From positions 62,001 through 126,000 of the forward strand of contig JAXHMK010000010.1 in NCBI GenBank assembly GCA_034521495.1: 64,000 nucleotides of DNA, read 5' to 3'. Position 1 is the stretch's first letter; every line of letters starts with the position of its first letter. The notes beneath the pieces were generated by a model. It saw only the letters and a program-made list of their open reading frames with translations, made no database searches and was not told where the DNA came from. A program made the position numbers and the translations under genes. Origin of the DNA: Balneolaceae bacterium. GTDB lineage: Bacteria > Bacteroidota > Rhodothermia > Balneolales > Balneolaceae. Shown in pieces: positions 54,544 to 57,439 of this stretch.

Positions 54544-56022
54544 ATGAAGAATATCAATAGCCACAGAGTTTTTAAAAGAAATGAAGCTGATCTCAATCCA
54601 AGTGGCAAATATGTTGTCTACTGGATGCAAAGTACCCGGCGGTTCCACTATAATTTTGGATTAGAATATGCCGTAAGCTGGGCAAACAAGCTCAACATAC
54701 CACTTCTTATTTTTGAAGCATTTTCCTGTAGCTACCGATGGGCAACAGATCGCTCTCATACATTTATGATGGAGGGAATGAGGGAACATCTCGATTTTGC
54801 GGAGGAGAATGAATTGAATTACATCACATTTTGTGAAGAAGAACCGGGCCAGATTGAGGAGATGTTTATGAAGATCAGCGAAGATGCCTCCCTGGTAATA
54901 TCAGATGAGTTTCCAATCTTTATTATCAACAAGAGCAATCAGAAGTTCTCGAAAAAAGTCAAGATTCCATACATCACTGTTGACTCCAATGGACTCATCC
55001 CTTTAGGAATCACGGACAAAGATCCCTACAGCGCCTATTTCTTCAGGAAAACCATGCAGAAAAATTTTGTAGAGGCGTATACCCATCCCCCAAAAAAGAA
55101 TCCATTAGACGATCTTGAAAACAATGATCCAATTGAGTTGATTTCTGAGATTGTGGATCAGTTTCCCGATGGGAAAAAAGCTTTAAAAGATATTCCTGCA
55201 TTTATTAAAGGGCTTGATATCAATCATTCTGTAAAACCGATTGACTGGAAAGGCACACGACAGGCCGGTTTGGGAATGATGGGGCAGTTCATCCAACATG
55301 GGCTTTTTGAATATGGGGATAAACGAAATGATCCGGATGAGCAAAAAACGAGTCAATTAAGTCCTTGGCTTCATTTTGGTAAAATTTCCACGTTTGAAAT
55401 TGTTCGGGCCATTTTAGACCATCAGCCCGAAGATTGGAGCCTGGATAAGATTACCTATAATAAAGGATCTACAGGAGGATTTTTTCATGGTAATTCGAAT
55501 ATTGCAGATTTTTTAGACGAATTGATTACCTGGAGAGAAGTAGGATTTCATTTTGCGCATCATCGTAGTGATTACGATCAGTTTGAGAGTCTGCCGGATT
55601 GGGCACTCAAAACAATGAATGAACATCGCGACGATCCCAGGGAATGGAATTATTCTTATGAAGAGCTGGCAGAGTCTAAAACGCACGATGAGATTTGGAA
55701 TGCGGCTCAAACACAGCTTCGGGAGGAGGGAATTATTCATAATTATCTGCGAATGCTTTGGGGGAAAAAAGTGATTGAGTGGACTCCGAACCCGGAAACG
55801 GCTCTGGAATATTTGATCGATCTGAATAATACATATGCCATCGACGGCCGCGATCCTAACAGTTATTCAGGTATTTTTTGGTGTTTCGGGCGATTTGACC
55901 GGGCATGGCAAGAACGCCCCATTTTCGGAAAGCTGCGCTATATGACCAGCAAAAGTACAAGGAGAAAGGTTAAAATCGATCAATACCTGAGGAAATATGG
56001 ACCGCAGAGAAATCTGTTATAA
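54544..56022 (+). CDS. Class II cyclobutane pyrimidine dimer photolyase
   Basis: Light-driven repair of UV dimers with FADH. The 492-residue protein matches the class II branch: YVVYWMQSTRRFHYNFGLEYAV at the N-terminus, SPWLHFGKISTFEIVRAI, FLDELITWREVGFHFAHH, and the C-terminal RMLWGKKVIEWTPNPETALEYLIDLNNTYAIDGRDPNSYSGIFWCFGRFDRAW with GKLRYMTSKSTRRK. The class I/cryptochrome architecture does not fit. Its stop at 56022 directly abuts the first of three palindromic operator-like sites that precede satD. Confidence 0.93.
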   Translation: MKNINSHRVFKRNEADLNPSGKYVVYWMQSTRRFHYNFGLEYAVSWANKLNIPLLIFEAFSCSYRWATDRSHTFMMEGMREHLDFAEENELNYITFCEEEPGQIEEMFMKISEDASLVISDEFPIFIINKSNQKFSKKVKIPYITVDSNGLIPLGITDKDPYSAYFFRKTMQKNFVEAYTHPPKKNPLDDLENNDPIELISEIVDQFPDGKKALKDIPAFIKGLDINHSVKPIDWKGTRQAGLGMMGQFIQHGLFEYGDKRNDPDEQKTSQLSPWLHFGKISTFEIVRAILDHQPEDWSLDKITYNKGSTGGFFHGNSNIADFLDELITWREVGFHFAHHRSDYDQFESLPDWALKTMNEHRDDPREWNYSYEELAESKTHDEIWNAAQTQLREEGIIHNYLRMLWGKKVIEWTPNPETALEYLIDLNNTYAIDGRDPNSYSGIFWCFGRFDRAWQERPIFGKLRYMTSKSTRRKVKIDQYLRKYGPQRNLL

Positions 56023-56100
56023 TATCGCTTTAAATAACGATAAAAGGTATATATCGTTTAAATAAGCGATAATTTGAAATTATCGTAAAAAAAGACGATA
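56023..56100. promoter_or_regulatory. Three palindromic operator-like sites, period 29 bp, upstream of satD
   Basis: Perfect TATCG-N10-CGATA palindromes lie at 56023-56042, 56052-56071 and 56081-56100, so the site centres are exactly 29 bases apart. The spacers are AT-rich, and the first two are also nearly symmetrical around TTTAAATAA. The last site ends 7 bases before the satD ATG. Arrays like this are typical of a homodimeric repressor binding cooperatively to its own promoter. Confidence 0.75.
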
Positions 56101-56107
56101 ATAAGGT

Positions 56108-56737
56108 ATGGGAACTACGATAACAGGAGATATTGTCAATTCACAATCTGTAGAGAAGGCCGAAATATGGCTTGATCCTCTAAAAGAGCTGTTTTCCAGT
56201 ATAGGAGAATCGCCAACTGTCTGGGAGATATACAGAGGAGACAGTTTTCAAATTGCCGTTTCACCAAAAAATTCATTGCGAACTGCTCTCATCATCAAAT
56301 CCGTAATCAAAAAAATTCCTTCCAAGAAGTTAGATGTGCGGTTAGCGATAGGTATTAGTGAAGAAGATGTAGTTGCAAACCGGGTAAGTGAGGCATCCAG
56401 CGAGGCTTTTGTGTATTCAGGGCAAATGTTAGATACTTTGAAAGAGAAAAAAGTTCATCTTGGAATTAAATCACCCTGGGATGATTTTGATAAAGAATTT
56501 AATATGATTTTCAAGTTAGCACTCATCATCATGAATTCCTGGACAAATAATTCTGCCGAGGTTGCCGAACTGCTGTTTAGTGTTTCAGGAATTACTCAGG
56601 TAGAAATTGCGGAGAGGTTAGGAATTGCCCAGTCCACCGTTAATGATAGAATTAAGAGAGGAGCTATTTATGAAATTATGGAGATGGAGCAGTATTTTCG
56701 TGAAAGAATTGAAACCCAAATGCCCCGGAGTTACTAA
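56108..56737 (+). CDS. SatD family protein with C-terminal helix-turn-helix
   Basis: A 209-residue soluble protein. The N-terminal part (ITGDIVNSQSVEKAEIWLDPLK, then WEIYRGDSFQIAV and VRLAIGISEED) is the SatD domain, named after a streptococcal secretion and acid-tolerance locus. Residues about 158-190 (SGITQVEIAERLGIAQSTVNDRIKRG) form a sigma-70-region-4-like helix-turn-helix. The three palindromes in its promoter make autoregulation likely. The ATG at 56108 follows the last palindrome by 7 bases. The DUF3307 gene follows directly. Confidence 0.8.
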   Translation: MGTTITGDIVNSQSVEKAEIWLDPLKELFSSIGESPTVWEIYRGDSFQIAVSPKNSLRTALIIKSVIKKIPSKKLDVRLAIGISEEDVVANRVSEASSEAFVYSGQMLDTLKEKKVHLGIKSPWDDFDKEFNMIFKLALIIMNSWTNNSAEVAELLFSVSGITQVEIAERLGIAQSTVNDRIKRGAIYEIMEMEQYFRERIETQMPRSY

Positions 56738-57439
56738 ATGATTCTTGTAAAACTAATTTTGGCACATATCATAGGTGATTTCTTTCTTCAGAGAGGAAAA
56801 TGGATTGAAAGTAAGGAGAAAAAAAAATGGGCCTCGCCGTACTTGTACCTGCATGTATTTATTCACTTTGCACTGATGTTTCTCATACTGTGGGATCTGA
56901 GTGCTTTACCTGTCATTTTGTTGATTACTATTTCACACTATGTAATTGACGGATGCAAACTGACCTTTCATACCGAAGAGACAAGAGAACTTTGGTTTGC
57001 TGTTGATCAGGTAGCCCATTTTGGAGTTTTAGTTGCTGCCTGGTTCTTTTATTGGGGTGGTGGAGATGTCAGCGGCCTGAGTGATCAGTTCTGGATTCTA
57101 TTGACCGGCTTATTGTTTCTTACGTATCCGGCCTCATACTTTATGCAGCATCTGATGGCTCCCTGGAGTGACCAGATAGATTCAGGCGAAAAGGAGTCTT
57201 TACAAGGGGCGGGAAAATATATCGGAATGCTTGAACGGGTATTTGTTTACCTTGCTTTGATTACAGCAAATGCACAAGTTATTGGGTTTTTACTTGCGGC
57301 CAAGTCAGTTTTTCGTTTTGGAGATTTAACAAGATCAAAGGACAGGAAACTAACTGAATACATTTTGATTGGAACATTATTCAGCTTTTTGATGGCAATT
57401 ATTGTAGGGCTTCTAAGTACAAGATTGAATTATACCTGA
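56738..57439 (+). CDS. DUF3307 membrane protein
   Basis: A 233-residue protein with about 6-7 hydrophobic helices; its ATG is the base immediately after the satD stop, so they are co-translated. The N-terminus LILAHIIGDFFLQRGKWIE and the later THYVI-like segment ITISHYVIDGCKLTF, plus WFAVDQVAHFGVLVAAWFF, fit DUF3307. Conserved His and Asp residues in the helices (HIIGDF, SHYVID, DQVAH) might bind metal. SatD and DUF3307 genes commonly occur together; the function of the pair is unknown. Confidence 0.83.
   Translation: MILVKLILAHIIGDFFLQRGKWIESKEKKKWASPYLYLHVFIHFALMFLILWDLSALPVILLITISHYVIDGCKLTFHTEETRELWFAVDQVAHFGVLVAAWFFYWGGGDVSGLSDQFWILLTGLLFLTYPASYFMQHLMAPWSDQIDSGEKESLQGAGKYIGMLERVFVYLALITANAQVIGFLLAAKSVFRFGDLTRSKDRKLTEYILIGTLFSFLMAIIVGLLSTRLNYT

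Follow-up and report, generated by a model that had tools for sequence, protein, structure and literature searches.

Phased palindromes upstream of satD form a widely conserved array that is most likely the operator of SatD itself

Results

The satD locus and its predicted promoter

The window (the whole 64,000-nucleotide stretch analysed, from a Balneolaceae bacterium) carries satD and a DUF3307 gene in direct succession downstream of a photolyase-family gene, with the following features:

54544..56022, + strand: photolyase-family gene, upstream, with its stop codon just before site 1
56023..56042, no strand: palindromic site 1, exact TATCG-N10-CGATA, starting right after the photolyase stop codon
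56052..56071, no strand: palindromic site 2, exact TATCG-N10-CGATA
56074..56079, + strand: -35-like TTGAAA, located between site 2 and site 3
56081..56100, no strand: palindromic site 3, exact TATCG-N10-CGATA, inside the predicted promoter
56097..56102, + strand: -10-like GATAAT, sharing bases with the right arm of site 3 and separated by 17 bp from TTGAAA and by 5 bp from the ATG
56108..56737, + strand: satD, 209 aa, with a palm (GGDEF/nucleotide-cyclase-like) domain and a C-terminal helix-turn-helix
56630..56659, + strand: recognition helix of SatD (helix 175-184 of the structure model)
56645-56647, + strand: codon of D180 in the recognition helix, the residue co-varying with arm base 4
56738..57439, + strand: DUF3307 protein, 233 aa, predicted all-helical, its ATG directly after the satD stop codon

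A first, sequence-only reading of this DNA had described three TATCG-N10-CGATA sites with a 29-base period ending 7 bases before the satD ATG, and this description is exact in the sequence: the 20-bp palindromes start at 56023, 56052 and 56081, site 3 ends at 56100 and satD begins at 56108. The three sites occupy the 85 bp between the photolyase-family stop codon and the satD ATG, and they are the sole zero-mismatch matches within the 64-kb window. The array score of this upstream region (38/42, z 9.3) exceeds those of all 200 dinucleotide-preserving shuffles of the same region. As to random occurrence of the motif, which the same reading had named as a check, the answer differs for lone and paired sites. 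The frequency of the lone site is near chance, with 10 places in the whole 4.57-Mb genome versus 6 for the reversed control pattern, and five of the seven single sites outside the satD array lie within ORFs of at least 100 aa. The frequency of the tandem pair is not chance, since the exact pair at period 29 was found in 17 of the 124 genomes of the order, while the reversed control gave 0 in each. The longest exact array among the matches listed has four TATCG sites in a row before satD (L069, genome G415).

Promoter-like elements were found around site 3 in two forms. TTGAAA-N17-GATA(A/T)T flanks site 3 in 12 of the 16 loci of the period-29 TATCG group, leaving 5 or 6 bp between the -10 and the ATG. 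The TATAAG group, which is mostly Chryseobacterium, shows the other form: site 3 continues with its right arm into TTTG and yields TAnnTTTG, which we take to be the consensus of the Bacteroidota -7 promoter element, in 19 of 20 loci. Within the array, TAnnTTTG was present in 20 of 32 loci with Q180 (2.4 expected), in 5 of 15 with R180 (1.1 expected) and in 1 of 35 with D or E180 (1.7 expected). The overlap between the array and the operon's own promoter, as looked for in an autoregulatory operator, is thus seen at the level of promoter-like elements. Site 3 would lie inside the predicted promoter in both promoter types, for which repression is the simplest reading. Because the -10-like GATAAT ends only 5 bp before the ATG, the satD message is probably leaderless, with a transcription start deduced from these same elements.

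Conservation of the array across satD homologues

Relatives of satD were found at 32 loci in a first scan. Phased palindromes stood upstream of most of them, often with other letters, the half-site versions including TATAAGC, TATTAGC, TATTGGC, TATTACA, TATATGG and more. A profile built from 24 SatDs (E<=1e-15) then identified the family in 91 of the 395 genomes sampled from the phylum and in 42 of 128 from the order, which after removal of repeats left 141 distinct satD genes of the phylum. When only the geometry of the window array was allowed, as set beforehand (20 bp, period 29), 16/21 pairs were reached by 32 of 109 closer homologues, compared to 0.4% of shuffles. With palindrome length and period left free, the scan peaked at 20-24 bp and 28-29. 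When spacings of 27-30 were allowed, a phased triple array was detected upstream of 111 of the 141 homologues at p<=0.01 by shuffles of their own sequence, and by falling SatD HMM score band this corresponds to 92/97, 7/12, 9/14 and 3/18. The spacings were 28,28 in 63 of these arrays, 29,29 in 41 and mixed in 7, so that a fixed period of 29, which fits part of the loci, was abandoned as the general rule. Among the 92 arrays of the top band, three sites were counted in 66, two in 8 and four to six in 18 under a looser count.

The same test applied to other ORF upstream regions in these loci was positive in 3 of 203 cases, all three being displaced arrays in satD loci (two loci of family f25, and L064 with its array 297 bp ahead of satD). 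At a score of at least 36, the figures were 87 of 141 for satD and 0 of 203 for controls. The conserved feature is therefore the geometry, i.e., 20-bp palindromes at a period of 28 or 29, and TATCG appears to be the version of one lineage. The scan of related genomes for TATCG-N10-CGATA proposed from sequence alone has to be recast accordingly: the literal motif is missing before many other satD genes where the phased geometry is kept, and this absence would have led to a wrong refutation, because the half-site differs by lineage. For this reason, the literal TATCG search was discarded as a test in related genomes.

Of the 30 loci that failed at p<=0.01, 11 are explained by an array in a displaced position or by a pair ahead of DUF3307, another 8 pass upstream at p<=0.05, and neither accounts for the other 11 (L110, L113, L119 and L148 among them). 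In family f25, a palindrome pair in the gap between satD and DUF3307 reached p<=0.01 in 8 of 13 loci, the gap pairs of L131, L132, L138, L140 and L142 not attaining this threshold; as a side observation, satD and DUF3307 lie ~90-260 bp apart in this family (L130-L132, L134-L140, L142, L144, L145), with pairs like TGCAAGC..GCTTGCA. Pairs before DUF3307 were also found at p<=0.01 in another family (L125 and L128, with TACAACC..GGTTGTA and TACAAGC..GCTTGTA, 29 apart), and none was found at this level in L119, L121, L146, L148 and L038. Altogether, ten loci carry a palindrome pair before DUF3307 in place of the array before satD. Since an array absent before satD can stand before DUF3307, this arrangement points to the DUF3307 gene as part of the regulated output.

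The protein encoded after satD in the window is assigned to DUF3307 (Pfam score of 104.2 bits versus a cut-off of 23), and its gene, which adjoins satD in the window, lies downstream of satD in 138 of the 141 loci, an association that is seen here and is no criterion of Pfam. Its structure model had no match in the PDB at E<=0.001. Many residues that do not vary among the DUF3307 proteins (G159, E166, R167, K189, S190, R193, E207, Y208, G212 and T213) fall in the C-terminal half, beyond the Pfam match (2-107).

Outside the phylum, arrays were also found before satD genes located on plasmids, 7 of 12 loci being positive at p<=0.01, several of which are closely related to each other. Arrays of three sites, with a period of 28, were observed in Vibrio lentus and Sphingomonas and, more weakly, in Agrobacterium, and two sites in Pseudoalteromonas and three haloarchaeal plasmids. 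The array of the Salinivibrio plasmid is doubtful (p 0.209 and 0.020), and no array was present upstream of the plasmid satD of Segatella (L173) and Arthrobacter (L180).

Co-variation of arm letters with residue 180 of SatD

The arm letters that differ between lineages were compared to the residues of SatD, in particular residue 180, which stands five positions past the conserved Q175 in the recognition helix. In a tally of 104 loci whose arm starts with TAT, TGT or TAC, C at arm base 4 accompanies D180 (15/15), E180 (20/21), G180 (3/3) and N180 (1/1), while Q180 goes with A or T (38/38), R180 with T or A (16/16, mostly TATTAC), and T180 has one locus each way. The exceptions to this C-or-not rule are E180 with TATAGAT (L010), T180 with TATCG (L104) and, in addition, family f25, in which D180 occurs with TGCAAGC-like sites. 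The D180 of f25 is thus not paired with TATC.

In a set of 44 representatives (N-terminal part clustered at 60% identity), residue 180 ranked first of 197 columns by mutual information for arm bases 4, 5 and 6 (level with T177 at arm base 5, where T accompanies N177). Clustering at 50% identity, which leaves 22 representatives, kept it first for bases 4 and 5 and not for base 6, and residue 189 led the sum with residue 180 second. When one cluster at a time was left out, residue 180 gave the right call on whether base 4 is C for 42 of the 44 representatives, compared to 34 for the next column and a baseline of 25. Arm base 5 was best predicted by residue 177 (35/44 versus a baseline of 22), and when base 4 was predicted to the letter (four states), residues 180 and 187 tied at 30/44 each, with a baseline of 19. 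On a tree built from SatD residues 1-155 (the N-terminal domain, with the helix-turn-helix left out), 10 branches carry a switch of base 4 between C and not C, and 9 of them (8 with strict D/E) also carry a switch of the residue class. Note that the class D/E/G/N was chosen post hoc, and that the strict D/E version and the leave-one-out test are independent of this choice. When changes of single-residue identity were set against the 10 base-4 switches, residue 180 was not among the top ten columns. Overall, the arm letters and residue 180 appear to change in step, as would be expected of a protein that evolves together with its own operator.

Arrays away from satD

In the home genome, a pair of sites is found at satD and, with one mismatch, at one further non-coding place. 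Among 28 genomes of the genus, pairs away from satD (<=2 mismatches) occur at only 3 places in 3 genomes, and a broad regulon was rejected on this ground. These pairs (L163:1501-1549, L165:1501-1549 and L185:1554-1602) each lie downstream of a gene from a single secreted lipoprotein-like family, 67 to ~350 bp beyond its 3' end, and those of L163 and L165 also fold well as RNA hairpins. Within the same genus, the SatD of genome G203 is identical over the 190 residues compared to that of Rhodohalobacter sulfatireducens.

A second target recurs in one other genus (g47), which we infer to be Chryseobacterium from the match of its SatDs and arrays to the Chryseobacterium loci L018-L031. All 60 genomes searched in g47 contain satD, 58 of them at least one TATAAG pair (<=1 mismatch), and 38 three TATAAG matches, two of which overlap at satD among the matches listed. 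The stop codon of a gene for a patatin-like phospholipase (TA-TAA-GC) marks the start of the second SatD-type pair in 20 of 20 fetched loci (L190-L209, within ~2333-2550), the arms of the pair being kept while the spacers vary, with p 0.003-0.017 in six g47 loci. The gene checked in L190 matches Pfam Patatin and the PADLOC 'Effector / Phospholipase' models, which we take to be those of CBASS effectors. An M15 peptidase gene precedes the patatin-like gene in L190-L209, and downstream of the array most of these 20 loci show a repeated CGTCAAGTTTTGTCG-like element and then TAnnTTTG, a promoter-like arrangement. This array looks genus-specific, because eight relatives of the patatin gene checked outside g47 (G331, G057, G084, G289, G375, G076, G029 and G002, drawn from 19 non-g47 genomes) carry no array, and patatin was consequently rejected as a conserved second target.

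Taken together, the array would be mainly a local operator and not that of a broad regulon. The suggestion of a new regulon made from the sequence alone is therefore not borne out, with one other non-coding place in the home genome and a repeated second target in one genus only.

Fold and family of SatD

The window protein belongs to the SatD family PF16264, although low in the family (31.2 bits versus a gathering cut-off of 29). The name of the family comes from the sat genes of S. mutans. The helix-turn-helix end ascribed to the protein from its translation was confirmed by HTH_24 (29.6 bits versus a cut-off of 21.9) and lies C-terminal in the structure model (pLDDT 92), in which a palm domain is followed by helices and then the helix-turn-helix. 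The structural matches of SatD are the palms of GGDEF, class III cyclase, GTP cyclohydrolase III, Cas10 and mCpol proteins, at modest scores: the best Foldseek E was 5.9e-3, with none at E<=0.001, and VIA-align gave Z 8.0-9.7 over 100-150 aligned residues among the matches listed. The modelled N-terminal domain thus has a GGDEF/cyclase-like palm fold, as a likeness of fold only, and no GGDEF, cyclase or Cas10 family was among the Pfam or NCBIfam hits at 1e-3. Nine residues do not vary among the 24 SatDs (T6, D8, S12, R43, G44, D45, K64, D76 and R78), and among them D8 and the R43-G44-D45 stretch may include candidate metal-binding aspartates. Because of the palm-fold matches and these invariant residues, a nucleotide ligand or product of SatD is plausible.

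SatD gave only weak PADLOC matches in its helix-turn-helix region (best E 0.0018) and DUF3307 none at 0.1, which does not place the pair among known defence systems; no SatD was found in phages with two queries, and no viral structure matched at E<=0.001. The same genome encodes a second, canonical-type SatD (PF16264 115.3 bits; L141:2483-3853, G000:C19), which has no clean array upstream; in its partner, the conserved C-terminal half of the DUF3307 protein is visible and the N-terminal motif is not. Locus L038, which is counted among the 111 and holds the second, canonical-type SatD of the same genome, shows no clean array by eye.

Discussion

Our results suggest that the array is a real and widely conserved operator, most likely that of SatD itself. 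We consider it highly probable that the three sites form the operator of satD-DUF3307, where SatD would bind and shut the promoter. The layout of the array and the residue co-variation give strong indirect support to a SatD that represses its own two-gene unit. Autoregulation of the satD-DUF3307 operon by SatD, as put forward in the sequence-only reading, is strengthened by the association of the array with satD (111/141 versus 3/203 controls) and by the co-variation at residue 180. Binding by SatD, its dimerisation and the repressive sign are inferred, and cooperative binding is suggested because the spacing of the lattice is fixed. In such a mechanism, each SatD dimer would take one 20-bp palindrome through its C-terminal helix-turn-helix, with neighbouring dimers placed 28-29 bp apart along the same DNA. 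SatD on site 3 would then cover the promoter spacer and the -10 and turn the promoter off, until the palm domain, by sensing or making a nucleotide, lifts repression and allows DUF3307 to be made.

Other readings of the array must be weighed against this putative autorepression. SatD might bind the array and activate, or mainly regulate DUF3307 in response to a ligand with its own promoter not repressed: the sign is not readable from sequence, an activator could act from the positions of sites 1 and 2, and some loci have a pair before DUF3307 only. However, site 3 falls on the -35/-10 spacer and the -10 arm in the 12 of 16 loci mentioned above, which is the classic place of a repressor, and on the -7 element in nearly all loci of the second promoter type, so that activation appears unlikely. 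That another transcription factor reads the array is conceivable insofar as the cognate pairing of SatD and array is deduced from co-variation, but a shared outside factor would leave unexplained why the arm letters track the recognition helix of SatD itself, and arrays also stand before plasmid satD genes of another phylum (e.g., Vibrio lentus, Sphingomonas and Agrobacterium); we regard such a factor as very improbable.

The palindromes could also act as RNA, as hairpins or an attenuator in the satD leader, and the segment does fold better than shuffles (z -4.74), as a row of palindromes must. Yet with a predicted -10 that reaches into site 3 and stops 5-6 bp short of the ATG, the array would remain untranscribed, and neither the strict 28-29 bp lattice nor the tie to helix residue 180 is expected of an RNA element. 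The hairpin reading was thus rejected, and we give it hardly any weight. Finally, chance or a simple A+T-rich repeat structure might be invoked from the near-chance frequency of single sites in the genome, but the shuffle and real-upstream controls and the empty reversed-pattern control reduce its probability to a negligible level. Autorepression by SatD accordingly remains the favoured reading.

Autoregulation is known in kind, and it is unusual here in form and on an uncharacterised module. Autoregulated helix-turn-helix repressors have palindromic operators in their own promoter, with a half-site that follows the recognition helix, and the satD palindromes likewise overlap promoter-like elements of the regulator's own operon. 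In contrast to these repressors, satD usually has three sites on a 28-29 bp lattice that is kept while the letters diverge, and SatD carries a nucleotide-cyclase-like palm domain. The Lrp/AsnC family combines phased multi-site binding with a helix-turn-helix and a ferredoxin-like RAM domain, and SatD is alike in its phased sites, its small alpha-beta domain with a helix-turn-helix, and a weak helix-turn-helix similarity. However, the HTH_AsnC-type score stays below threshold (20.1 bits versus a cut-off of 27), no RAM family is among the Pfam hits at 1e-3 that would correspond to the C-terminal RAM domain of Lrp/AsnC, and the order is reversed in the model, with the sensor first, resembling GGDEF/cyclase/Cas10 palms, and the helix-turn-helix last. 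The palm fold is also common to Panoptes mCpol/OptS and Cas10 (9pd0_C, 9mnr_A and Cas10 chains are among the structural matches of SatD), but this likeness is at the fold level only, and SatD differs by its helix-turn-helix and its DUF3307 partner. In the literature searched, partly by title, no operator, DNA target or function was found for the SatD/DUF3307 pair.

A wider and much more tentative picture, which we hold to be possible rather than probable, is that SatD-DUF3307 is a widespread nucleotide-signalling switch built around a membrane effector. The palm domain of SatD would make or read a nucleotide, DUF3307 would be harmful and kept silent by adjacent SatD dimers covering the array, and loss of SatD or a nucleotide change (upon stress or phage infection) would release it. 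One paper (PMC11323703) reports satD of S. pyogenes to be essential in all strains tested by transposon studies and present in 178 of 249 genomes. A gene that is essential yet not universal would fit one that holds a putative harmful partner down.

SatD and DUF3307 are widespread and uncharacterised, and the array now gives SatD a predicted DNA target and a likely mode of action, in which a cyclase-like palm domain would be tied to the transcriptional control of a likely membrane protein. The paired recognition helices and half-sites (residues 180 and 177 versus arm bases 4 and 5) resemble a small protein-DNA code that is testable by gel shift, and the function of the satD-DUF3307 module thereby becomes testable as well.
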